A stretch of 64,000 bases of DNA from Armatimonadota bacterium (GTDB taxonomy: Bacteria > Armatimonadota > Fimbriimonadia > Fimbriimonadales > Fimbriimonadaceae): positions 1-64,000 of the forward strand of contig JANYCU010000017.1 in the NCBI GenBank assembly GCA_025360125.1, read 5' to 3'. Below the pieces are notes generated by a model. That model did no database searches and was not told the origin of the DNA. It saw nothing but the letters and a program-made list of their open reading frames with translations. Shown here piece by piece: positions 4,800 to 55,936 of the stretch. Position 1 is the stretch's first letter; every line of letters begins with the position of its first letter. Position numbers and translations under genes: made by a program.

Positions 4800-7700
4800 G
4801 TTCACGCACGAAAGGGCTTCCCAATGTCAGGTTAATCACATCTGCGTGAACTAACCTGCCCGCGATACTCGATGTATTGATTGAAACTGGTGGGTCTCCT
4901 GCCTGACTTGGGTGGACTTCGTACTCACGGAGCACAACTCGATATTCGCTCGCACGATTTGGCACGGTCACGGTCCCAGGACGGCCTTGCGCCAACTGAG
5001 CGAGATTTTCAGGCTTTCCGCTCCAATCATATAAGTTCGACAAAAGGGCAAACATTCCCAATGGGCCATTGCTGAATGGAACGAAGAACTCAAAAGGTTC
5101 ATTGTCTCTCGTGACTGGCATCCAAGGTGCGTCGGGACTACTGTTCGCCTGAGTTTCTAAGGTACCAATGACAACGTTTGAGGCGACCTTGGTTTTGCCA
5201 GCTATGCCAGCATAAAACACATGAAAAGTCTTGCGCTGTTCGACGGTTACGACCAACGCGACTCGGTCGGGCTGCAACTGTGTGATCTCGGTTACCGACA
5301 AGGGACTTACATGGTTTCCTTCCGTTGAATTTGGTTGATATCGGCAAACCACCAGCCTTAAGAATGGCGTGTAATACGGATTGAGAGGATCGATTTCAAT
5401 GTCCACGAACCACAACTGAAGCTGTGCATCGAACTTGGGATCGTAAGTGATAAGAGTCGCGGTTCCGCCAATTTCGGGAATTTGAACTTGGTTGGCAACC
5501 CCTGATTTTCCGAGGAAATGAGCTGGCGTCATGTTCAAGGTGTTGTCCAAGAATTCAAATGCAGGGTCAAAACCGATCGTGGAATGGTAATAGTAATCTG
5601 GATTATTTGAATTTGGTCCAGATCCATCGGGCAACACAACCGCAAGCTTTTCGCCTATACCGCTCGAAAACCAAGGCCGACGCAAGTAAATCCGAATGGT
5701 GTTTCCTCGCTTGCGACTCACTTTCCCGGTTGGAGTAGAGTCGCTTGCCCAAGTCATTGCCGGGAGGACGTATTCGACTTGAGGCTTGTCGGGGCGCTTA
5801 CTTGATGGAACGATAATATTGGTCTTGATGTATGATCGCGTGTAGGCTCCAGATGGTCCTTCAGACTCAGTTGATGCCGCTGAAGCAACCAACTTAAGAC
5901 GTTGGCGGCTGAGTGCCTTGGCTACCGGATTTGCCTTTTGGGCATTGGGGAAGAAGTCTGCATATCGTGTCTTTGCAGTAGCCGTTATTTCGACAATATG
6001 GCACTTCGTATCGTGAAATTCTATGCCCTCATCGGCATACCATCCATTAACGGGAACGGTGTCGATGTAGGCGGGATTCAGATCTGAAATCTTGGCGTCG
6101 TGGCCCTCGGCTTCGGTCTTTCTTCGATGTTCTGAAAGGTCATCGACGGGGTCCGAATAACTGATTGTGAATTCCAATTCTTCGGTACTCCAGCCATGGA
6201 CCTGTCCGCGCATGTCAAATGTCGCGGCTGTTCCCTCTCGACTGACTTCAATCTTATCGAACTTAAATCCATTTTCTGGAACTTGGGTGGCATAGACAAC
6301 CCTCACAGCCCGTGTCGGAGTAATTGCTGAGTTTTGACCTCGAAGGCAGGCTTCAAGCGCTTTTTGAGAGCTTGACTCAACTGGCGCTTCGCGAGTAAAC
6401 CTGATTGCAATTGGTCGATAACTGACTGGCTCGAAGCTGAACGGTTTGTGGGTGCGATGGCTCTCCATCCTTTGACTAAACTTCGGTGTTTTTGCAGCTC
6501 GGACCAAGCTGTCTCCTTTTGTTTGGAGGGACTTTTCTATCCACCGAGTCTGTTCAAAGACCGGAAGATAGTCTTCGCTGGTCGTTGAACTTAAGCTAAC
6601 GGTTACGTCTTGTCCTGGAGCCAATGTCAATCCGATTCCCTGGATACCTGTCGAACTGTCCATCTTAAAGGCAGAGCCTGGCATCAAAGATAAGGTCGAA
6701 GCCTGGGCATCGATCCATCCACCCGCAGGAAGGAATCCAGTCGTCGCGACATCGGTCGGTTTTGATGCTCGACCTTCGCGCTTTACGGCAGCCCCCACGC
6801 AAGCAGGATCGATGAAATACGGGACTGGCGGCGCATTAACAGACGTGATGGTATCGGGGATCTCTTTTCGAGCGTCAACCGATGCCACTTTGTCCCAAAA
6901 TGTAGGGTCGGGCGATCCAGTTGGCAGATCAAATTTGCCGTGAAGCTCGGCCATACTCATTCCGCCGACAGGAGGATAGAGGAACCTAAGAGATTTTGAA
7001 CCGACCTTTCCATCAGCGGTCTTACGGACGGCTAAAACGTTTGCAGATTCACCAGGTCCGGCACTATCGTGCAAATGAACAGATGGAGGCAAAATTGGCT
7101 CGTGTCGAAGATAAGCAATTGTCTGAGATGCGCCCGAAGGTTCTTTGGCCGTCAACGGCAAACTGTTACCAGCGAGATCGACAGATCGTGATCGAATTGC
7201 ATAAACCTCGCCGTAGCGCAGGGTAGGTAACGATCCCTTTGCTGGCTCGGCAAAATAATTCAAACGATAGAACTTGTCAGATTCGGTTGCCTGATATTTG
7301 TGGCTCCGTGCTTCATCAATCGACGAAATAGTTGATGTATCAGGCATCGAGTCATCTTGTAGGCTACGATCAACCAGTGGGCTAACTGGTTTCGGAGCGG
7401 AAAGACTCCAGCCATCCCAAGTGAGGACGCTCTCTGGGATCTTGACAACCTTTCCATCCGGCGACGATGTGTTACTTGGCGATACGTGACCTTCGTCCGA
7501 AAGATCGATTGGCAAAGCTTTATCTGCGATTCGATAGAAGAGCGTGCGGGCAGTTAGAGAGAACCATTTTCCCTTATGAAGAACGTCTGGGCGCCAACCC
7601 TTATGGAGGTCGTCAGCATAAAGCGTATCCGCAAATCTCGCACTGTAGATTTGTTGTCCAATCGTGTCTCGAACCAAGTGTCGTGCAGAGTGTTCTCTTC

Positions 7701-46825: not shown

Positions 46826-47668
46826 ATGAAAAAGGCCTTTACGCTTATTGAATTACTTGTGGTTATTGCGATCATCGCAATTTTGGCTGCAATCCTCTTC
46901 CCCGTCTTTGCTCAAGCAAAAGAAGCGGCAAAACAGACTCGCGCGCTCGCTCAAATGAAGCAGCTTGCAACGTCACTGATCATGTACTCCACCGATCATG
47001 ATGACTACTTTGTTCCTGCTTCTGGTCGAGATCCGTTAGGCGTCTCCGATCCTTTCGTTTGGACCCAAGGCTTGTTCCCTTACGTCAAAAACGACCAAAT
47101 TTTTGTTTCTCCGGCAGCCAGCGATTCAACCATGGCCAAAGATTGGAGCACACGTAAGAACCAAAGCGTTGGCTACAGCGATGCCACCGGAGTTGATCCT
47201 AACAGCACCGCCGTGCCCGGAGCCGCCCCCGCCGGAACCGAAGGTTTCAATGGCGCAGCGTCATTCTCCCAAGCCGAAGAAGTGGCCCGGACTGGACTGA
47301 TCGTTACCACTCCGAACAGCCTTAACGGCAAAGAAAGAGGATATGTCTTCAATCCATACAACGGAGCAACACCAACCACCGGAACTGCCAGCGAGAACTA
47401 CAAAAATGGCCTCCCGCTTATTTCCGATGTGAACATCTGTACCACCGTTGCAGCAATGAATGCACTCACGCCATGTACTCCTGCCGGAGTCGGTTTCTTT
47501 GACTGCACCGCAAACGCTCCCGGAGCATTGAAGCCAGTCTATGCCCGATTCCGTGCCAATAAGAAAGGCGATGGCGTCACGCCAGTCATCTTTGCTGATG
47601 GCCACGCAAAATCGTTCACAGCCAACGCACTGAACACATTCGGCAACGTCATCTGGCGATTCCGATAA
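46826..47668 (+). CDS. Prepilin-type protein (DUF1559-like / pseudopilin)
   Basis: 280 residues. MKKA is followed by FTLIELLVVIAIIAILAAILFP, a minimal prepilin leader with cleavage after A4 and Glu at +5. FAQAKEAAKQTRALAQMKQLATSL and VIFADGHAKSF near the end match the abundant pilin-like proteins of Armatimonadota and Planctomycetota. It stands alone with its own promoter and terminator. It may form a surface filament or pseudopilus using the pil machinery. Confidence 0.85.
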   Translation: MKKAFTLIELLVVIAIIAILAAILFPVFAQAKEAAKQTRALAQMKQLATSLIMYSTDHDDYFVPASGRDPLGVSDPFVWTQGLFPYVKNDQIFVSPAASDSTMAKDWSTRKNQSVGYSDATGVDPNSTAVPGAAPAGTEGFNGAASFSQAEEVARTGLIVTTPNSLNGKERGYVFNPYNGATPTTGTASENYKNGLPLISDVNICTTVAAMNALTPCTPAGVGFFDCTANAPGALKPVYARFRANKKGDGVTPVIFADGHAKSFTANALNTFGNVIWRFR

Positions 47669-48274: not shown

Positions 48275-49236
48275 TGTCAGTGCCCTTTCGCTCCCTCAGA
48301 TCGGGCGACCAAATGCCTGTCCTCGGTCTCGGAACGTTCGGCTCCGATAAGTACAATGCTGCGACCGTTGCCGCCGCCGTAATCGAAGGTTACGGGCTGG
48401 GTTATCGCCATTTCGATTGCGCCGAAGTGTACGGCAACGAAAAGGAAATCGGAGACTCTTTTGCTTCAATAGTCCGAAATGGAGCCAACCGCAAGGACCT
48501 TTGGATCACCAGCAAGGTTTGGAACAATCACCACGGTGACGCGGTCGCAGCCTGCGAAAACTCCCTCCGAAACCTCAAGCTTGACTATCTCGATCTGTAT
48601 CTCATCCATTGGCCATTCGCAAACCATCACGAGCAAGGCGTAGCTGTCAATTCTCGCGATCCACATGCCAAACCGTACAATCACGACGGATACATGCGAA
48701 CCTGGTCACAACTCGAAGACCTTCACCAACGCGGTCTGGTAAGAAACATCGGAACGTCGAACATGACGATCCCAAAACTCTCCCGAGTGCTCAGTGACGC
48801 GTCAATAAAGCCCGCCGTCAATGAAATGGAAATCCACCCCCACTTTCAACAGCCCGAGTTATTCAACTTTTGCATCCAAAACGAAATCGTCCCCATCGGC
48901 TACTCTCCGATAGGCTCTCCCAGCCGCCCCGAACGAGACCGCACCAGCGACGACACCATCGATATAGAAGACCCCGTCATTGTCCAAATTGGCAACCGAC
49001 TTAACATTCACCCGGCTGTTATTTGTATCAAATGGCAGATCCAGCGCGGCTCAATCCCCATCCCTTTTTCGGTCAAGCGATCCCAAATGGAAACCACCCT
49101 GAAAGGAGTATCGTCAGAACCACTCACCGAAGCCGAGATGAACGCTGTCAGCCAAATCGACCGAAACTGCCGCCTCATCAAAGGACAAGTCTTCCTCTGG
49201 CCCGAAGCCAACGACTGGCAAGACCTGTGGGACTAA
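48274..49236 (+). CDS. Aldo/keto reductase
   Basis: 320 residues from GTG 48274 (GTG 48280 is an alternative). MPVLGLGTFGS starts the barrel. The catalytic residues are D and Y in RHFDCAEVYGNE, K in LWITSKVWNN and H in LYLIHWPF. IPIPFSVKRSQMETTL is the NADPH-binding region. It reduces an aldehyde or sugar; substrate unknown. The open frame extends upstream but over the RbsD-like gene. Confidence 0.88.
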   Translation: MSVPFRSLRSGDQMPVLGLGTFGSDKYNAATVAAAVIEGYGLGYRHFDCAEVYGNEKEIGDSFASIVRNGANRKDLWITSKVWNNHHGDAVAACENSLRNLKLDYLDLYLIHWPFANHHEQGVAVNSRDPHAKPYNHDGYMRTWSQLEDLHQRGLVRNIGTSNMTIPKLSRVLSDASIKPAVNEMEIHPHFQQPELFNFCIQNEIVPIGYSPIGSPSRPERDRTSDDTIDIEDPVIVQIGNRLNIHPAVICIKWQIQRGSIPIPFSVKRSQMETTLKGVSSEPLTEAEMNAVSQIDRNCRLIKGQVFLWPEANDWQDLWD

Positions 49237-49521
49237 TTAGAATCGAGGAACAAAGTTCCCCAGCCGTCCCTCCCGGATTATCCCAGCATTCCTAATATTA
49301 CAGTAGTAGAACCCAGTTCCCAGCGAACGACAAGGAACTAGTCATGCTACGCCCTCGGGAGAGCTACGGAGTAGCCAAGAGCTGAGCAGGCCTTAGGCGA
49401 AGCGGAGGGCGTGGACAAGTTTTGGCATCTGCCATCCCACGGAAGCCATTTCGTCAACTTGATCACCATCCCGCCACAAAAAGATCAAGCCTTCGAACCT
49501 CAGTTGGCTTATAATTGCCCT
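49237..49521. repeat. Intergenic hairpin cluster downstream of the aldo/keto reductase
   Basis: No gene. It contains GGAAC-AAA-GTTCC at 49247-49259, matching the proS-side hairpin except for the loop. GCTAC-GGA-GTAGC lies at 49363-49375 and a GCGAAGC word at 49397-49403. An 8-bp inverted repeat (49349-49356 with 49405-49412) encloses the last two. The promoter of the next gene is at 49510. Confidence 0.65.
49510..49515 (+). promoter_or_regulatory. TATAAT -10 box, probable leaderless promoter
   Basis: A consensus TATAAT ends 6 nt before ATG 49522. A -35 element is not clear. Confidence 0.5.
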
Positions 49522-50031
49522 ATGAAAGTGCCCAACGGCTTAAAACTCCAACGAGGCATCTTCATCACGTGGTCAGTCCTCTGGTTCTTGGCCCTTCTGC
49601 CAGTTGAGTTCATTCACAAATCACTAAGTCTAGTCTTCCTTCAAATCGAAGATGCCGTATCGTCATGGGACCGAAGGTATCTGACCTGGGGTCAAGACTA
49701 TATCCAGGACGCCGACTGGCATTACAAACTAACACCCCAAATACTGATATTCGTTTTTGCAATGTGGACTCTCTCTGTCTTTCTCGCGTTGAAAGTCCGC
49801 GCACAGGTTCGATGTAGCCGATGGATCTGGCGAATCCTCTGGCTCGTCGCGATGATCCTCTCCTATTGCTTCGTGCGTTCCGAGGTCATCGTAGCTTCTA
49901 CACCCTGGGAGACCATCTGGGATTGGTTTGGTGCCATGATCATCATGGTTCCGTTCTGGCTACTCCAACCCGCTGACTTGGCTCCATTGTGGCGCTCGCG
50001 AAGCAATTGCCAACCAAATGCGGTGGATTGA
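49522..50031 (+). CDS. Small integral membrane protein of unknown function
   Basis: 169 residues with about four hydrophobic segments: FITWSVLWFLALLPVEF, ILIFVFAMWTLSVFLAL, WIWRILWLVAMILSYCFV and FGAMIIMVPFWLL. Trp-rich. No family recognised. ATG 49522 is chosen over upstream in-frame starts because TATAAT lies 6 nt before it. It borders the repeat-rich accessory region. Confidence 0.55.
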   Translation: MKVPNGLKLQRGIFITWSVLWFLALLPVEFIHKSLSLVFLQIEDAVSSWDRRYLTWGQDYIQDADWHYKLTPQILIFVFAMWTLSVFLALKVRAQVRCSRWIWRILWLVAMILSYCFVRSEVIVASTPWETIWDWFGAMIIMVPFWLLQPADLAPLWRSRSNCQPNAVD

Positions 50032-50147
50032 GTACCGGCTGCCACCATGCAACTATTGTCGCAGCCATTAGCGATTAGTTGCCAGGGAACAGCGCCAACG
50101 GAGAGTCCTTGGAAAAGACCGCCAATAGGGCAGTCTTTTCTGAGGTG

Positions 50148-50236
50148 GGCTTTACCCTTAGCCCAGTCCGAGAGTCTTTCGACGTATCAGCGTCAAAAGG
50201 CTCGGAGGGCTGGGTAGGCAGGCAGAAACTGTCCCT
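50148..50236. repeat. Structured 89-bp element, copy 1
   Basis: Repeats at 50307-50395 with a few changes. Its core folds as nested arms: CCCAG, CCGAG and CTTTTG-type segments pair with CAAAAG, CTCGG and CTGGG around a TATCAG loop. Near the end, GGCAG-AAA-CTGTC is a further small triloop stem in this copy. Confidence 0.75.
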
Positions 50237-50306
50237 TCCACAGCCGCCGTGCAACTATTGTCTCAGCCCGTAGCGATTAGTTGCCAGGGAACAGCGCCAA
50301 CGGTGC

Positions 50307-50395
50307 GGCTTTACTCTTAGCCCAGTCCGAGAGGCTTTTGGCGTATCAGCGTCAAAAGGCTCGGAGGGCTGGGTAGGCAGGCGGTAACTGTCCCT
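50307..50395. repeat. Structured 89-bp element, copy 2
   Basis: Second copy of 50148-50236. In this copy the inner stem is CTTTTGGCG with CGTCAAAAG (one G-T pair) around TATCAG. No mobile-element gene is seen next to it. Confidence 0.75.
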
Positions 50396-50531
50396 ACCAC
50401 GGTCGCTAGCTCAGGGCACAATCTTATCCTGAACTCTGTGCTCTGAAAACTGAGCCTTGATTTTGCGAGCGACCCCGCCGATAGGCGAGAATTCAAGAGA
50501 AGTGCAAAAAAAACACCAATCCCCACACCCC

Positions 50532-50580
50532 GACTCTCCACTCCGCACTCCGCACTCTGCACTTCGCACTATGCACTGCC
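50532..50580. repeat. Degenerate heptad array (CACTNNG)
   Basis: Seven head-to-tail 7-bp units, from GACTCTC through CACTCCG, CACTCCG, CACTCTG, CACTTCG, CACTATG and CACTGCC. The last four recur over the glucosidase stop at 53335-53362, and a degraded set is at 50885-50905. Confidence 0.8.
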
Positions 50581-50617
50581 TTCCGCAATCAAATTCGCAA
50601 TCAACGCCGTCCAGCCC
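50549..50617. repeat. Copy of the glucosidase gene 3' end (69 bp)
   Basis: Matches 53331-53399, the true end of the GH63-type gene including its stop and the heptads, at 68 of 69 positions. Beyond 50617 the sequence leaves the gene and enters the hairpin unit. Confidence 0.9.
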
Positions 50618-50900
50618 TTCGAAGTGGGACAAGAATCGTTACCTCTTTTGTAAGAGGTCGGTGAGCGATTTCGATTGAACCAATCGAAATGCTGAGCAAA
50701 CCGGGAGATTAGATTCATAAATGCTCATAAGCTTTGTTCACGATCAGCCACGTCTAAGACATTGGATGCTTCCCAAATCGCATCCCTCCAAAGATTGGAA
50801 GGGTGGCGCATCGGTCATTCCATTTACATTGCTCTTTCATGACCGACGGAGGAACGAAGTTCCCAGGGGGTGGATGATTCTCCCGACTCCGCGCTCTGCA
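50579..50900. repeat. Long direct repeat, left unit
   Basis: Pairs with 53041-53343. The first 230 bp (50579-50808) match 53041-53270 closely. After a divergent stretch, 50867-50900 matches 53310-53343 with one change. It contains CCTCTT-TTGT-AAGAGG (50642-50657), a perfect 10-bp stem with AAC loop (50668-50690), and GGAAC-GAA-GTTCC (50851-50863). Confidence 0.88.
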
Positions 50901-51151
50901 TTACGCTCCCCCTGGGAAAATCGTCACTCGAAATTATGAGTTTTGATACGGCAGACTTTCGGATGGTCGGATTCGATTCAACGAGATATCTCTACTAGTT
51001 GAGAATTAACCATCAAAACAAAAGTTCTTGCCACAATGAGTTCCTTGTCCTTAAGAGTTTGAACTCCACCAACGCTTGGAACTCCGCTATAAATTGACAT
51101 GTTTTATAAAACACACTTTCAAATTTGATCAATGCAGTGTATTATTCACAA

Positions 51152-51568
51152 ATGAAACGAACGCTTCAATCGAAAACGGTCAAAAATCTAATTCGATTTG
51201 GTTGTTTAAGTTTCGTATCATTCGGACTCTATGGAGTTTGTATAAGTCGTTGGGCCGGAGTCAATCTTCGGCTCAACACTATATCAGTCAGATATGACCG
51301 ATCAAGTAAGAACAGTCAATTAGGCAGATTTATATTGGTAAATCCTACATTCGCCAAGGTTGAGATGAATGTTCAACCAGCATGTGGATGCGTTGTTGTG
51401 ACGGATTATCCAAAGAATTTGTATCCTTTTGTTCCATGCATCGTGGTTTTGGAGATTCACCCAGATTCGTTAATCTCAAAGCCTGGATACAAGCAAAGGG
51501 TGGCATTTGAATGTTCAGACTCTAGGCATAAGTGGACCGAAACCGTAGAAGTAGAACCAAGGATATAG
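51152..51568 (+). CDS. DUF1573-like exported protein
   Basis: 138 residues. A hydrophobic N-terminal segment (FGCLSFVSFGLYGVC) serves as signal or anchor. The body has GRFILVNPTFAKVEMNVQPACGC and PCIVVLEIHPDSL, which fits the DUF1573 Ig-like fold with its CGC motif. TATTAT lies 6 nt before the ATG. First of three closely spaced genes (2- and 11-nt gaps) in AT-richer DNA between two copies of a direct repeat. Confidence 0.65.
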   Translation: MKRTLQSKTVKNLIRFGCLSFVSFGLYGVCISRWAGVNLRLNTISVRYDRSSKNSQLGRFILVNPTFAKVEMNVQPACGCVVVTDYPKNLYPFVPCIVVLEIHPDSLISKPGYKQRVAFECSDSRHKWTETVEVEPRI

Positions 51569-51570
51569 TC

Positions 51571-51954
51571 ATGAAATTAACTAAAATACTCTCAATCACT
51601 GTGCTACTTAGCTTGACGAGCCAATTTATGGCTCAAGACGACGTGCCACCTGCATCGCCTGTGACCATCCATAAAATGAAGTGCTTTCCAAATTACCCAT
51701 TTGGGGCTGGTGAAAACGAAAATATAACCTGTACTCCAGCATGCGAAGGAAATTGCTTCCGTCGAACATTCGGAACTGCCTACGTCAGCGTATGCGTTCC
51801 GGGGACTGCCTCTGAAACGTGCGTCGCTACATACAAGGACTTTCACTGGAGTATAGAAACAGCTCCTTGCAAATCAGACCCTTACGGGTGTGGATGTGAT
51901 ACAACGTGGAGTGCCGGACATACAGAAACGATCAGCTTGCCAACTTGCACCTAA
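51571..51954 (+). CDS. Small cysteine-rich secreted protein
   Basis: 127 residues. Signal peptide MKLTKILSITVLLSLTSQFMA, then a mature part with ten cysteines (ITCTPACEGNCFRR, then CVPGTASETCVAT, CGCDTTW), probably disulphide-bonded. No family recognised. It starts 2 nt after the DUF1573-like gene. The Cys-rich form suggests a stable extracellular or periplasmic factor. Confidence 0.6.
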   Translation: MKLTKILSITVLLSLTSQFMAQDDVPPASPVTIHKMKCFPNYPFGAGENENITCTPACEGNCFRRTFGTAYVSVCVPGTASETCVATYKDFHWSIETAPCKSDPYGCGCDTTWSAGHTETISLPTCT

Positions 51955-51965
51955 ATGGCACGATT

Positions 51966-52952
51966 ATGGAAAACTTTCAACATCTAACTTGGAGCATTAC
52001 GTCTTCGCAAGAATGGCGAGAATCAGGCGGAGCAGCTCAGACCTTTCAAAAAGAAATTGAAAGTACGATTGAGGTCTGGGTTGGTCAGACCTCAACTTTC
52101 TATCGCGTCAATAGTCCAATAATTAATGAAAGCAATAATCTTGAATTGCAGAGACAAGAATTTGAACTTCGTTCAAATTTCGCGATTATGCAGACATTTG
52201 ATTGCCGAAATACCCGTAGCCATGACAAGTGGGATGTTTGCTTTGTCCAAGTAATCCCCGCATTTGGCGATCCGAGAATTTCTGATGTCAATTTATTGCA
52301 ATTTCCATTAACTGAACTATTCACTCGCCTGATGCTTCTCGGTAAGGTGCCAACAAATTGGAATGAATTGCAGTTCGAAAATGGCGCCGACAAATTCTCG
52401 TTAAAAACCTGGGATGAAGTGAAAAAAACTTCCAAATTGAAGAGTGATCCAAGGGGATGGACAAAATATTCAGGTTCTTTTGTGAATCACAAGCTTGTTG
52501 GCGTTTCGATCACAAATGGTTATGGCGGAAGAGCCCTTCGAAATTATGACCATATTCAGTTCGATGGGAACCAAATCGTGAAATTTACTCGCTCGGATGA
52601 AACAATTCAATCCAAGAGGCTTACATCTCCTCGGTTAGTGTCCCAATTCGAATTGAAATCTGTGGATAATAATCCACCAAATATCGAGTTCAAAAAGGGT
52701 GCCACAGTGTTTGATTTTCGGCATTGTAATCCTGTTGCGCTGAATCAATTTCCAGACAAAACTTGCCCGCCAAAGACCTACAAGTGGTCTGGAGACGTGG
52801 CCGATATGAAGACTTTGGCTACATTAGATGTAGCTGGCTTTAATATTCCTCCTCCGCCAAAGCAAAATCCAATATCACCAATGTTTATTGGTATCACCGT
52901 CGTCGCTGGACTCATAGGTCTCGCTTCATTTTTTAAGCTGAGAAAGCGGTAG
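51966..52952 (+). CDS. C-terminally membrane-anchored protein of unknown function
   Basis: 328 residues from ATG 51966. There is no N-terminal signal at this start. The C-terminus has a Pro-rich stretch (IPPPPKQNP), a membrane helix (MFIGITVVAGLIGLASFF) and basic LRKR, a tail-anchor arrangement. The body is Asn/Phe/Lys-rich and unlike any family I know. An earlier in-frame ATG at 51906 overlaps the Cys-rich gene. It closes the three-gene module. Confidence 0.55.
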   Translation: MENFQHLTWSITSSQEWRESGGAAQTFQKEIESTIEVWVGQTSTFYRVNSPIINESNNLELQRQEFELRSNFAIMQTFDCRNTRSHDKWDVCFVQVIPAFGDPRISDVNLLQFPLTELFTRLMLLGKVPTNWNELQFENGADKFSLKTWDEVKKTSKLKSDPRGWTKYSGSFVNHKLVGVSITNGYGGRALRNYDHIQFDGNQIVKFTRSDETIQSKRLTSPRLVSQFELKSVDNNPPNIEFKKGATVFDFRHCNPVALNQFPDKTCPPKTYKWSGDVADMKTLATLDVAGFNIPPPPKQNPISPMFIGITVVAGLIGLASFFKLRKR

Positions 52953-53350
52953 TGCATGAGCCCGTTTGTGGGCGGATTACGAGTGTCCGGTTGTCAAGGC
53001 AATTTGGCGGATAGGAGCAACGTTCATTGGCTTTAATTACCCTTCCGCAATCATATTCGCTATGAGCGCCGTCCAGCCCTTCGAAGTGGGACAAGAATCG
53101 TTACCTCTTTTGTAAGAGGTCGGTGAGCGATTTCGATTGAACCAATCGAAATGCTGAGCAAACCGGGAGATCAGATTCATAAACGCTCCTAAGCGTTGTC
53201 TACGATCAGCCACGTCTAAGACATCGGATGCTTCCCAAATCGCTCCCTTCAAAAGATGGGAGGAGTGGCAGTCCTGTGACTTTGTCAGAGAAGCGAAGCT
53301 TCCAGAGACGGGGTGGATGATTCTCCCGACTCCGCACTCTGCACTTCGCA
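52953..53350. repeat. Gene-free region with the right direct-repeat unit
   Basis: No gene. From 53041 it matches 50579 onward: a diverged copy of the glucosidase 3' end (TSKGWTALIANMIAEG when read on the minus strand), the TTGT- and AAC-loop hairpins (about 53104-53119 and 53130-53152), and GAAGC-GAA-GCTTC at 53290-53302. The segment 52953-53040 shows nothing recognisable. Confidence 0.8.
53041..53343. repeat. Long direct repeat, right unit
   Basis: Counterpart of 50579-50900. It ends in the heptads that overlap the glucosidase stop codon. Its GAA-loop stem differs from the left unit by two compensated base pairs. Confidence 0.88.
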
Positions 53351-55936
53351 CTATGCACTGCCTTCCGCAATCAAATTCGCAATCAGCGCCGTCCAGCCCG
53401 TTTGGTGGCTCGCCCCACACCCGCGCCCAGTATCACCATCAAAGTACTCATAAAACATCAAGTGATTCGGGTTCGCCTGACTAAACGAGTCCGGTTGCGC
53501 AGGCAAAACTCCGTCCGCTCCCGGCTCGTACAAACTGATAATCCGGCGGCTCAACTCTTCCGCCAACTCCCCAACATTCGTATCGACCGAACTCTCAGAA
53601 AGCACAATGTTAAAGTCAGCTCCCCACGCCGCGTGGTGCTCCCGCAATGCCTCAACCAACATGTAGTTGATCGGCATCCAAATCGGACCCCGCCAGTTCG
53701 AATTCCCGCCAAATACCCCAGTGGTCGATTCACCTGGCTCGTACTCGATCAGGTGTTCTGTGCCCTCAATCGACTTCGAAAACGGACGATTCTTGTAGTA
53801 CTTTGACAAGGCCCGTACCCCATGCGGTGAGAGGAACTCATCTTCGTTAAACACGCGGGACAAAATACGTCCAATCCGTGCCTTCGGCACTAGCGACAAA
53901 TGGCTCGACTTCCGCCCATTCACATCCAGTGTTTCGTGGCACGCCTTCGCCAATCCCGGACGATGCTTCAGAAACCACTCAACCCGCTCCCGAAAACCCG
54001 GCAAGTTGCTGATCTGATCGGGCGAAATCGTGGCCACCGCAAAAATCGGAATCACACCGACAATCGACCGAACCTTGATTTGCTCATCGCTCGATGGATA
54101 CCGCAACAAGTCGTAAAAGAAACCGTCTTCGTCATCCCACATTCCGCTCGAATTCAGCGCGTCAGCGACATAGAGAAAGTGCTCAAAGAACTTCGAAGCG
54201 ACATCGCCATAGCTAATATCGTGCGCCGACAACTCTAGGGCAATCGAAAGCATATTCAGGCAATACATACCCATCCAACTGGTGCCATCTGACTGCTCTA
54301 ACACATCGCCATTCGGTAGCGACATATTCCGGTCAAACAGACCAATGTTGTCAAGGCCTAAGAATCCACCTTCAAACAGGTTATTCCCCAGCTGATCTTT
54401 CCGGTTAATCCACCACGTAAAGTTCAACAAGAGCTTGTGAAAAGCCTTGCTCAAAAATTCATAGTCCGGTACCCCCGTGCGGTCGCGGTCGTCCCGAAAT
54501 ATCTTGAGCGCGGACCACGCGTGAACCGGAGGATTGACATCGGAAAAAGCCCACTCATAGGCTGGAATCTGGCCATTCGGGTGCATGTACCACTCCCGCA
54601 TTAGTAGCAATATCTGAAACTTAGCAAAATCCGGGTCAACCAGCGCACACGTCACGCAATGAAACGCCAAATCCCAGGCGGCAAACCACGGGTACTCCCA
54701 TCCATCTGGCATCAAAATCAGGTCCTTTGCGTGCAGATGAGACCAACCGCTATTGCGCGTTCGGTGCCCTGGTGGCGGCGCGGGTTGATTCGTATCCCCC
54801 GCTCCCCAACGGTCCCAGTCAAAATAGTAATACTGCCGCGACCACAACAGCCCAGCTAGGGCACGCCGCTGAATCAAAGCCTTTTGCGGGTCCTTCGGAG
54901 CAGTAGAGGCATAAAACTGATCGGCCTCTTCTTCTCGCATGACGAGCGTCTTTGCCCACTCCTTCTGGGCTGGAAACCCTTTCTCTGGCCCAAGGCAACA
55001 CTGAATTTCCTTCGTCTCGCCAGCAGCAAGAACCATCGGAATCACCGCGCAACCTTTCGTTCCAGTCTGCTCAGGGTTCACCGCGTCAACCTCTCCATTC
55101 ACAACGTACCGATGAAAGGCATCCTTGACGTAAGGCGTTTCATTCGGCTGCCCAAACAAACGCTCTTCATTCGAATCGTTGTTCGTAAACAAAAACTCCG
55201 CAGCATCCGGGATTTCAAGACTGACGCGCCCGTATCGGTGTGACTCTGCCACCAAAGTCTTTTTTCCCGACTTCGAAATGCTTGGCATTTCGGATCCGTC
55301 ACGCCAAGACCATTTATTCCGAAACCACAAATGCGGCAAAACCCAAATAGAAGCTGCTTCTGGCCCCCGGTTGGTGATTGAGGCCCTCGCGACCACCGTC
55401 TCCTCGTTCATCTTGGCGTAAGTGATCTCGATCTCAAAATATCGATTTTCATCCAAAATTCCCGTGTCGATCAGCTCGTATTCTGGCCGATGAACGCCAA
55501 TAGTTCGGTTGGTTGCGACCAAGTCTTCGTAAGGAAACTCGCGATGCGGATAGATGTAAACCGTCCGCATAAACGAGCTCGTCGGCGTCCCATCAACATG
55601 GTAGTAAAGCTCCTTGACGTCCTCTCCATGATTACCTTCCGGGTTCGAAAGCCCAAAATACCGCTCCTTCAAAATCGGATCGTTGCCATTCCAAAACGCC
55701 CAGGCAAATATCTGTTCGCAATGCCGATCGCACCATCCTGCCAAGCCATCTTCCCCCCAGCGATACGCCCGAGATCGAGCCTGGTCGTGAGTAAAGTATG
55801 TCCACGCCGAACCGCTATCCGAATAATCTTCCCGAACCGTGCCCCAGTGTCGGTCGGCCAAGAAACAGCCCCAACGGTACCAATGTCCTTTTAAGGCATG
55901 CTGGTCCGCTAATCGCAAATGCTCGGGAGTATTCAA
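53351..55936 (-). CDS. GH63-type glucosidase (MGH1-like)
   Basis: 861 residues from TTG 55936, set by GGAGG six nt upstream, 3 nt beyond the SDR stop. DQHALKGHWYRWGCFLADRHWGTVREDYS opens the family pattern; an (alpha/alpha)6 barrel follows with GWSHLHAKDLILMPDGWEYPWFAAWD, SDGTSWMGMYCLNMLSIALE and NSNWRGPIWMPINYMLVEAL. The end is SHQTGWTALIANLIAEG. Such enzymes act on alpha-glucosides such as mannosylglycerate or glucosylglycerate, or glycogen-like sugars. Its last 69 bp exist in two further copies downstream, one nearly exact and one diverged. Confidence 0.85.
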   Translation of the reverse strand: MNTPEHLRLADQHALKGHWYRWGCFLADRHWGTVREDYSDSGSAWTYFTHDQARSRAYRWGEDGLAGWCDRHCEQIFAWAFWNGNDPILKERYFGLSNPEGNHGEDVKELYYHVDGTPTSSFMRTVYIYPHREFPYEDLVATNRTIGVHRPEYELIDTGILDENRYFEIEITYAKMNEETVVARASITNRGPEAASIWVLPHLWFRNKWSWRDGSEMPSISKSGKKTLVAESHRYGRVSLEIPDAAEFLFTNNDSNEERLFGQPNETPYVKDAFHRYVVNGEVDAVNPEQTGTKGCAVIPMVLAAGETKEIQCCLGPEKGFPAQKEWAKTLVMREEEADQFYASTAPKDPQKALIQRRALAGLLWSRQYYYFDWDRWGAGDTNQPAPPPGHRTRNSGWSHLHAKDLILMPDGWEYPWFAAWDLAFHCVTCALVDPDFAKFQILLLMREWYMHPNGQIPAYEWAFSDVNPPVHAWSALKIFRDDRDRTGVPDYEFLSKAFHKLLLNFTWWINRKDQLGNNLFEGGFLGLDNIGLFDRNMSLPNGDVLEQSDGTSWMGMYCLNMLSIALELSAHDISYGDVASKFFEHFLYVADALNSSGMWDDEDGFFYDLLRYPSSDEQIKVRSIVGVIPIFAVATISPDQISNLPGFRERVEWFLKHRPGLAKACHETLDVNGRKSSHLSLVPKARIGRILSRVFNEDEFLSPHGVRALSKYYKNRPFSKSIEGTEHLIEYEPGESTTGVFGGNSNWRGPIWMPINYMLVEALREHHAAWGADFNIVLSESSVDTNVGELAEELSRRIISLYEPGADGVLPAQPDSFSQANPNHLMFYEYFDGDTGRGCGASHQTGWTALIANLIAEGSA

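Follow-up and report, generated by a model that had tools for sequence, protein, structure and literature searches.

The locus described here raises the question of what a block of three genes is that lies between two direct repeats beside a gene with a duplicated end, and of how it came to be there. The block is found in a 64,000-nucleotide stretch of DNA from an Armatimonadota bacterium, which is called the window below. A preliminary description, made from the sequence alone, had proposed a non-autonomous mobile cargo with a surface or envelope role, moved by factors encoded elsewhere. The features on which the argument draws are the following.

49237-53350: stretch inserted relative to relatives, between an aldo/keto reductase gene (ending at 49236) and the GH63 gene
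50541-50578 (38 nt): tail piece to the left of unit A, a copy of the DNA immediately 3' of the GH63 stop (96% pair)
50579-50906: repeat unit A, comprising the GH63 gene end (~40 nt), a middle part with a palindrome, and a tail
50637-50709: REP-like dispersed palindrome of unit A, with at least six further copies in the genome
51152-51568, plus strand: g1, DUF1573-like protein with an N-terminal transmembrane (TM) segment and a CGC motif; ORF open from 51125
51571-51954, plus strand: g2, protein with a signal peptide and exactly ten cysteines, a framework common to 27 relatives
51966-52952, plus strand: g3, member of a predicted LolA-like family with a C-terminal TM segment, N-terminal signal absent; ORF open from 51906
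53041-53362: repeat unit B, abutting the native GH63 gene end
53099-53171: REP-like dispersed palindrome of unit B, with further copies in the genome
53351-55966, minus strand: native GH63-type glycoside hydrolase gene (Pfam PF22422 and PF03200)

The two direct repeats, given as about 300 bp in the preliminary description, were recovered at the places reported there. Units A and B are ~325 nt long each, with a core that is 92% identical, and they resolve into three direct pairs: 50579-50807/53041-53269 (229 nt, 92%), 50867-50906/53310-53349 (40 nt, 93%) and 50541-50617/53323-53399 (77 nt, 96%), the last of which includes the GH63 3' end. The duplication of the adjoining gene end also held: the last ~40 nt of the GH63 gene (GWTALIAN[LM]IAEG) are present in three copies, at 50579, at 53041 and, as the native end, at 53363, with a period of 322 nt from unit B to the native end. 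On the plus strand the order is thus tail, gene end, middle and tail, then the cargo, then gene end, middle and tail, and finally the native gene end with the GH63 body. Inverted pairs in the region are short and imperfect, and none was found at the ends of the cargo. Three positions separate gene-end copy B from the native end, and copy B is 94.3% identical over 35 nt to the GH63 orthologue of G009, compared with 91.4% for copy A; these few sites hint that the allele of copy B may be foreign in origin. Such repeat pairs were sought as a control in 40 random 15-kb stretches of related genomes and in three other tiles of the window, and were found in one of the 40 and in none of the three, so the pair exceeds chance.

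Both units contain a palindrome of ~70 nt that has at least six additional copies in the 4.13-Mb genome. The copy in unit A folds better than all 200 of its shuffled versions, and the whole 4.1-Mb genome has 22 matches to Y1_Tnp (RAYT-like); given this dispersal, strong fold and set of Y1_Tnp genes, the palindrome is probably a REP element. Its copies elsewhere in the genome share the palindrome alone, not the rest of the repeat, and the bracketing repeats reach past it on both sides. An Rfam search of the block gave no match. A second local repeat, distinct from the bracketing ones, adjoins the module at 50041-50412, where a hairpin-forming intergenic sequence occurs twice (100 nt at 91% and 70 nt at 87%).

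Orthologues of the GH63 gene were found in nine relatives. Near-empty syntenic sites, proposed in the preliminary description as a check on the cargo idea, were found in G002 and G009, the two closest relatives with the aldo/keto reductase-GH63 gene pair. Their flanking genes are syntenic with those of the window and the gap between the pair measures 134 nt and ~330 nt, respectively, versus 4.1 kb here, which indicates that the region was inserted in the window's lineage. When composition was analysed, the AT-richness that had been seen by eye was borne out: GC falls to 0.38-0.45 inside the block from ~0.53, and GC3 is 0.37-0.44 in the trio versus 0.53-0.65 in the neighbouring genes. The block is foreign by composition. 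Strict homologues of the trio genes were found in none of the other searched species of the same genus. Within the inserted stretch lies a further ORF (49411-50031) for a predicted 206-aa membrane protein, with a host-like GC3 of 0.594 and no relative among 85 family genomes. In view of this orphan ORF and the other repeat pair, the growth of the stretch was not necessarily a single event. Further upstream, 4 kb from the trio, lies a pseudopilin-type gene (46826-47668, with an FTLIELLVV start) that has two matches in the syntenic region of G002.

The window protein sequences alone, used as queries, retrieved nearly no homologues, and the trio proteins had no usable match in Pfam, NCBIfam, PHROGs or PADLOC. 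The family was opened with profiles built from two weak matches and then iterated on the fetched loci. One seed was a weak g1 match in G048 that adjoins a cysteine-rich ORF and a large anchored ORF, and the other a g3 match in G177 with the same arrangement of neighbours. With these profiles, g3 was found in 25 and g1 in 16 of 291 genomes of the phylum, mostly at the same places; some of these genomes are fragmented, so that counts of absence are lower bounds. The g1 profile proved too heterogeneous for scanning named genomes, for which a profile of a g3 subset was usable. One locus in G005 was dropped from the set as a false g3 match with neither a cysteine-rich gene nor g1.

The order g1, cysteine-rich gene, g3 was found at about 20 loci, several of which carry tandem pairs of cysteine-rich gene and g3, and the trio of the window (51152-52952) has the same order, with ten-cysteine g2 in the middle, on one strand. 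Recurrent neighbours in the relatives are a sigma-70/ECF-like gene upstream and, downstream, a pseudopilin gene and a gene for either a Wzy_C O-antigen ligase or an Lnt-like protein, the latter label coming from reading of the sequence. These neighbours are frequent, not universal, and are absent around the window trio, which consists of the three core genes only. Judged by gene order and profile matches, the trio is no chance cargo, and the block is a compact representative of an operon family that recurs across Armatimonadota. We found no description of such an operon in the open-access literature, and the family is apparently undescribed. At two loci, L115 6396-7243 (G102) and L116 1955-2745 (G101), g1 is followed by the cysteine-rich gene without g3, whose place is taken by another exported-looking protein of ~280 aa.

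The gene types named in the preliminary description, a DUF1573-like protein, a secreted ten-cysteine protein and a C-terminally anchored protein, were upheld, that of g1 through its relatives. For g1, the window protein is too divergent to match Pfam alone, whereas 17 of the 20 members of its profile family match PF07610 (DUF1573) at E ≤ 0.1 and the CGC motif is invariant across the relatives.

The g2 relatives are 14-27% identical to window g2, and no family of Pfam or NCBIfam covers the set. Across 28 proteins, nine of the cysteine columns of window g2 are kept in 26-28 sequences and the tenth in 19; the set was partly picked by cysteine content, so that the number of cysteines is biased and their spacing is not. 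An array in G183 (L100) holds five g2 paralogues, at 6674, 8466, 10153, 12534 and 14138. Their first 54 nt are 81-94% identical and the 60 nt upstream 57-100%, compared with just 8-30% for the mature residues. As far as these alignments reach, g2 proteins keep the same cysteines and are variable almost everywhere else. Animal conotoxin-type precursors likewise have a constant leader and constant cysteines with a variable remainder. The likeness is an analogy, with no homology claimed, as g2 is bacterial and lies in an operon with membrane partners.

Structure prediction, the check suggested for all three products, was informative for g3 through a homologue; the predicted structure of g2 had low confidence and was too uncertain for a structure search. 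The HR15 homologue of g3 was modelled from a six-row alignment (pLDDT 78) as a LolA/LolB-like sheet with one helix at the N-terminus and a TM helix at the C-terminus. Foldseek returned LolA3 as the best match (E 7e-8), and VIA-align gave Z scores of 12-13 to DUF1329, LolA3 and LolB and of 8-9 to RseB. On the strength of this homologue, the g3 family is predicted to have a LolA/LolB-type fold, as in Porphyromonas gingivalis LolA3 (9tp6), the DUF1329 protein 4z48, LolB and RseB. It would differ from that superfamily by its signal peptide, its C-terminal TM helix and its cysteine-rich gene partner. Sequence similarity of g3 to solved structures was not detectable, and searches of plasmid, phage and viral collections retrieved nothing for g3. 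Since RseB has the same fold, we considered whether g3 might be a sensor of the RseB type acting on the neighbouring sigma factor. This role was rejected, because the predicted cytoplasmic tail of g3 is just a few residues long and no sigma gene adjoins the window trio.

All aligned g3 family members have a signal peptide and window g3 does not: in the alignment its start falls in the region just after the signal peptide of the relatives, and the upstream ATG at 51955 yields only a ten-residue peptide. Either the signal has been deleted, in which case the LolA-like domain would be cytoplasmic, or there is a sequence error; the missing signal suggests that the window copy may be decaying. The envelope or surface role proposed earlier fits the family, given an Ig-like DUF1573 protein, a signal peptide with ten cysteines and a LolA/LolB fold, and is doubtful for the window copy.

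Related modules also lie beside duplicated pieces of host genes at other sites. In G171, the module is placed between a truncated 5' copy and an intact copy of the malate synthase gene aceB (848 bp, 99.3%); the same module recurs at a second site, ~95% identical, where its g3 is split into several frames. The single contig of G079 carries its module with a truncated msrA on one side and an intact copy on the other (313 bp, 95%); the two differ chiefly in the first ~60 nt of the truncated copy, as expected from a recombination mosaic. A module of g1 and cysteine-rich gene in G101 is bordered by a 102-bp duplicate of the start of a GNAT gene, and G037 has a duplicate of the sigma gene that belongs to the module itself (918 bp, 98.8%). 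For two of the three loci beside a partly duplicated host gene (aceB, msrA and GNAT), sister species have clean empty sites, namely G078 (flanks 99.9% and 95.6% identical) and G167 (continuous at 90-93%). Bordering repeats were found at 5 of the 16 module loci with enough flank, one of which (L099) duplicates the module's own sigma gene, versus 1 of 43 control tiles (Fisher p 0.004, a post hoc comparison). The duplicated piece is a 3' gene end with intergenic DNA in the window and a 5' gene part at the other loci. A repeat in L105 (8092/12249) was rejected as flank, as it is a leader common to two cysteine-rich genes.

These observations support part of the mobile-cargo idea, namely an insertion of foreign composition with related modules at unrelated sites elsewhere, and leave unsupported the part in which the repeats serve as ends for a trans-acting enzyme. 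The repeats are a partial copy of the neighbouring gene end and of the DNA downstream of it, and the same occurs with unrelated genes elsewhere, which points to recombination. As to conservation in place in distant relatives lacking the repeats, named in the preliminary description as evidence against a cargo, the picture is mixed: module arrays of genus g92 lie in flanking synteny shared among species, which argues against frequent movement of the module, and the site in the window's own genus is empty.

The absence of a transposase or integrase from the block was also corroborated. No such gene was seen in the modules read, the three window ORFs matched neither transposase nor other families, and Pfam, NCBIfam and PHROGs showed no integrase among the ORFs. 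Duplications of 0.1-0.85 kb of unrelated host sequence are too long to be the target duplications of a transposase. Unlike a transposon or insertion sequence, the block has no transposase and no terminal inverted repeats with a short target duplication; it has direct repeats of ~325 nt instead. Since no recombinase gene was seen in the modules read and the duplications are long, we favour recombination with partial duplication of the target over transposition.

In the preferred explanation, the trio would have entered the lineage as foreign DNA beside the GH63 gene, and recombination would have produced tandem units of the GH63 3' end and its downstream sequence, two of which enclose the module. 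Most likely this was a mechanism of the natural-transformation kind, in which one end is joined through homology and the other illegitimately or unequally. Transformation is described as leaving merodiploids bordered by repeats (PMC3784515), and DNA is also described as being joined through homology on one side and by illegitimate recombination on the other (PMC3240628). In both, repeats arise from partial chromosomal duplication around incoming DNA without a recombinase of its own; the tandem duplications they report are far larger than the repeats of 0.1-0.85 kb seen here, which are known as a sequence outcome only. Transformation-like integration appears the most likely mode, ahead of a Campbell-type circle or stepwise growth and, behind these, of REP/RAYT movement. 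The joint explanation, which combines a foreign operon, recombination-type integration and export of g2 with a g3 partner, seems to us evenly poised between right and wrong; the orphan ORF and other repeats in the inserted stretch count against it, as a single clean event is not evident, and so do the contrast between the 3' piece duplicated here and the 5' pieces elsewhere, the post hoc nature of the repeat count and the shared synteny in g92.

We regard it as unlikely that a circle carrying the module and a piece of host gene, popped from a donor via the repeats, integrated by a single homologous crossover. Such a crossover leaves directly repeated intact and truncated gene copies, the arrangement seen at aceB and msrA, but no replication or mobility genes were seen in the modules read, g3 has no match in the mobile-element collections searched, and a prior non-homologous capture of the host gene piece would still be required. 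Next in order, and likewise improbable, is stepwise growth, in which the GH63 end and REP-bearing DNA were first duplicated in tandem and the foreign genes arrived later by illegitimate recombination. The three gene-end copies with their 322-nt period, the 8% difference between units A and B, and the orphan ORF and further repeat pair nearby would all fit this sequence of events, which leaves the gene duplications at other module loci unexplained. Least probable, and quite poorly placed, is movement of the palindromes as REP elements by Y1 (RAYT-like) transposases encoded elsewhere, with the trio as a non-autonomous composite, a reading close to the preliminary one: the dispersed intergenic palindromes and the Y1_Tnp genes resemble REP/RAYT systems in the ~70-nt palindrome only, yet here the palindromes are not the ends of a moved unit, the bracketing repeats greatly exceed them and contain a host gene end, the bordering repeats of the aceB and msrA loci consist of host gene sequence, and other cargo between such units was not seen.

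Whatever the mode of arrival, the module family is a more interesting result than the mobile-cargo idea. The one-to-one pairing of their genes suggests that g2 and g3 are partners. In full operons the sigma factor would probably drive expression, g2 would be exported and disulfide-bonded, and g3, tethered to the membrane, would serve the paired g2 as a periplasmic carrier or chaperone. Delivery of g2 to the surface, itself inferred, may be aided by the DUF1573, pseudopilin and Wzy/Lnt proteins. A VKOR-domain gene directly after g3 in G048 suits a disulfide-rich g2 partner. More tentatively, and with more doubt than confidence, we propose that the three genes form the core of an Armatimonadota system that is undescribed and occasionally mobile. 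Hypervariable exported proteins on a constant leader and ten-cysteine scaffold would each have their own membrane-tethered LolA-type partner, and homologous recombination between the near-identical leader DNA of paralogues would add, swap or move modules, so that the repertoire of surface proteins or effectors varies. Should g2 and g3 indeed be paired, LolA-type proteins gain a use beyond generic lipoprotein traffic, and g2 becomes a bacterial case of diversification on a constant leader and scaffold. An odd repeat structure is thereby tied to a widespread operon, unnamed as far as the searched libraries show, and its mode of spread can be tested through the partial host-gene duplications found at independent loci.

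Two further gene arrangements were seen among the loci. At L093 (9625-11799), 3' of a double array of cysteine-rich gene and g3, a Wzy_C O-antigen ligase is fused to a peptidoglycan transglycosylase domain (PF00912). At L099 (10197-11988) and L105 (13157-14685), a second kind of cysteine-rich gene (191 aa, and 184 aa with 15 cysteines, respectively) adjoins a secreted protein of ~320-400 aa and a sigma factor, and perhaps represents a sister type of module.
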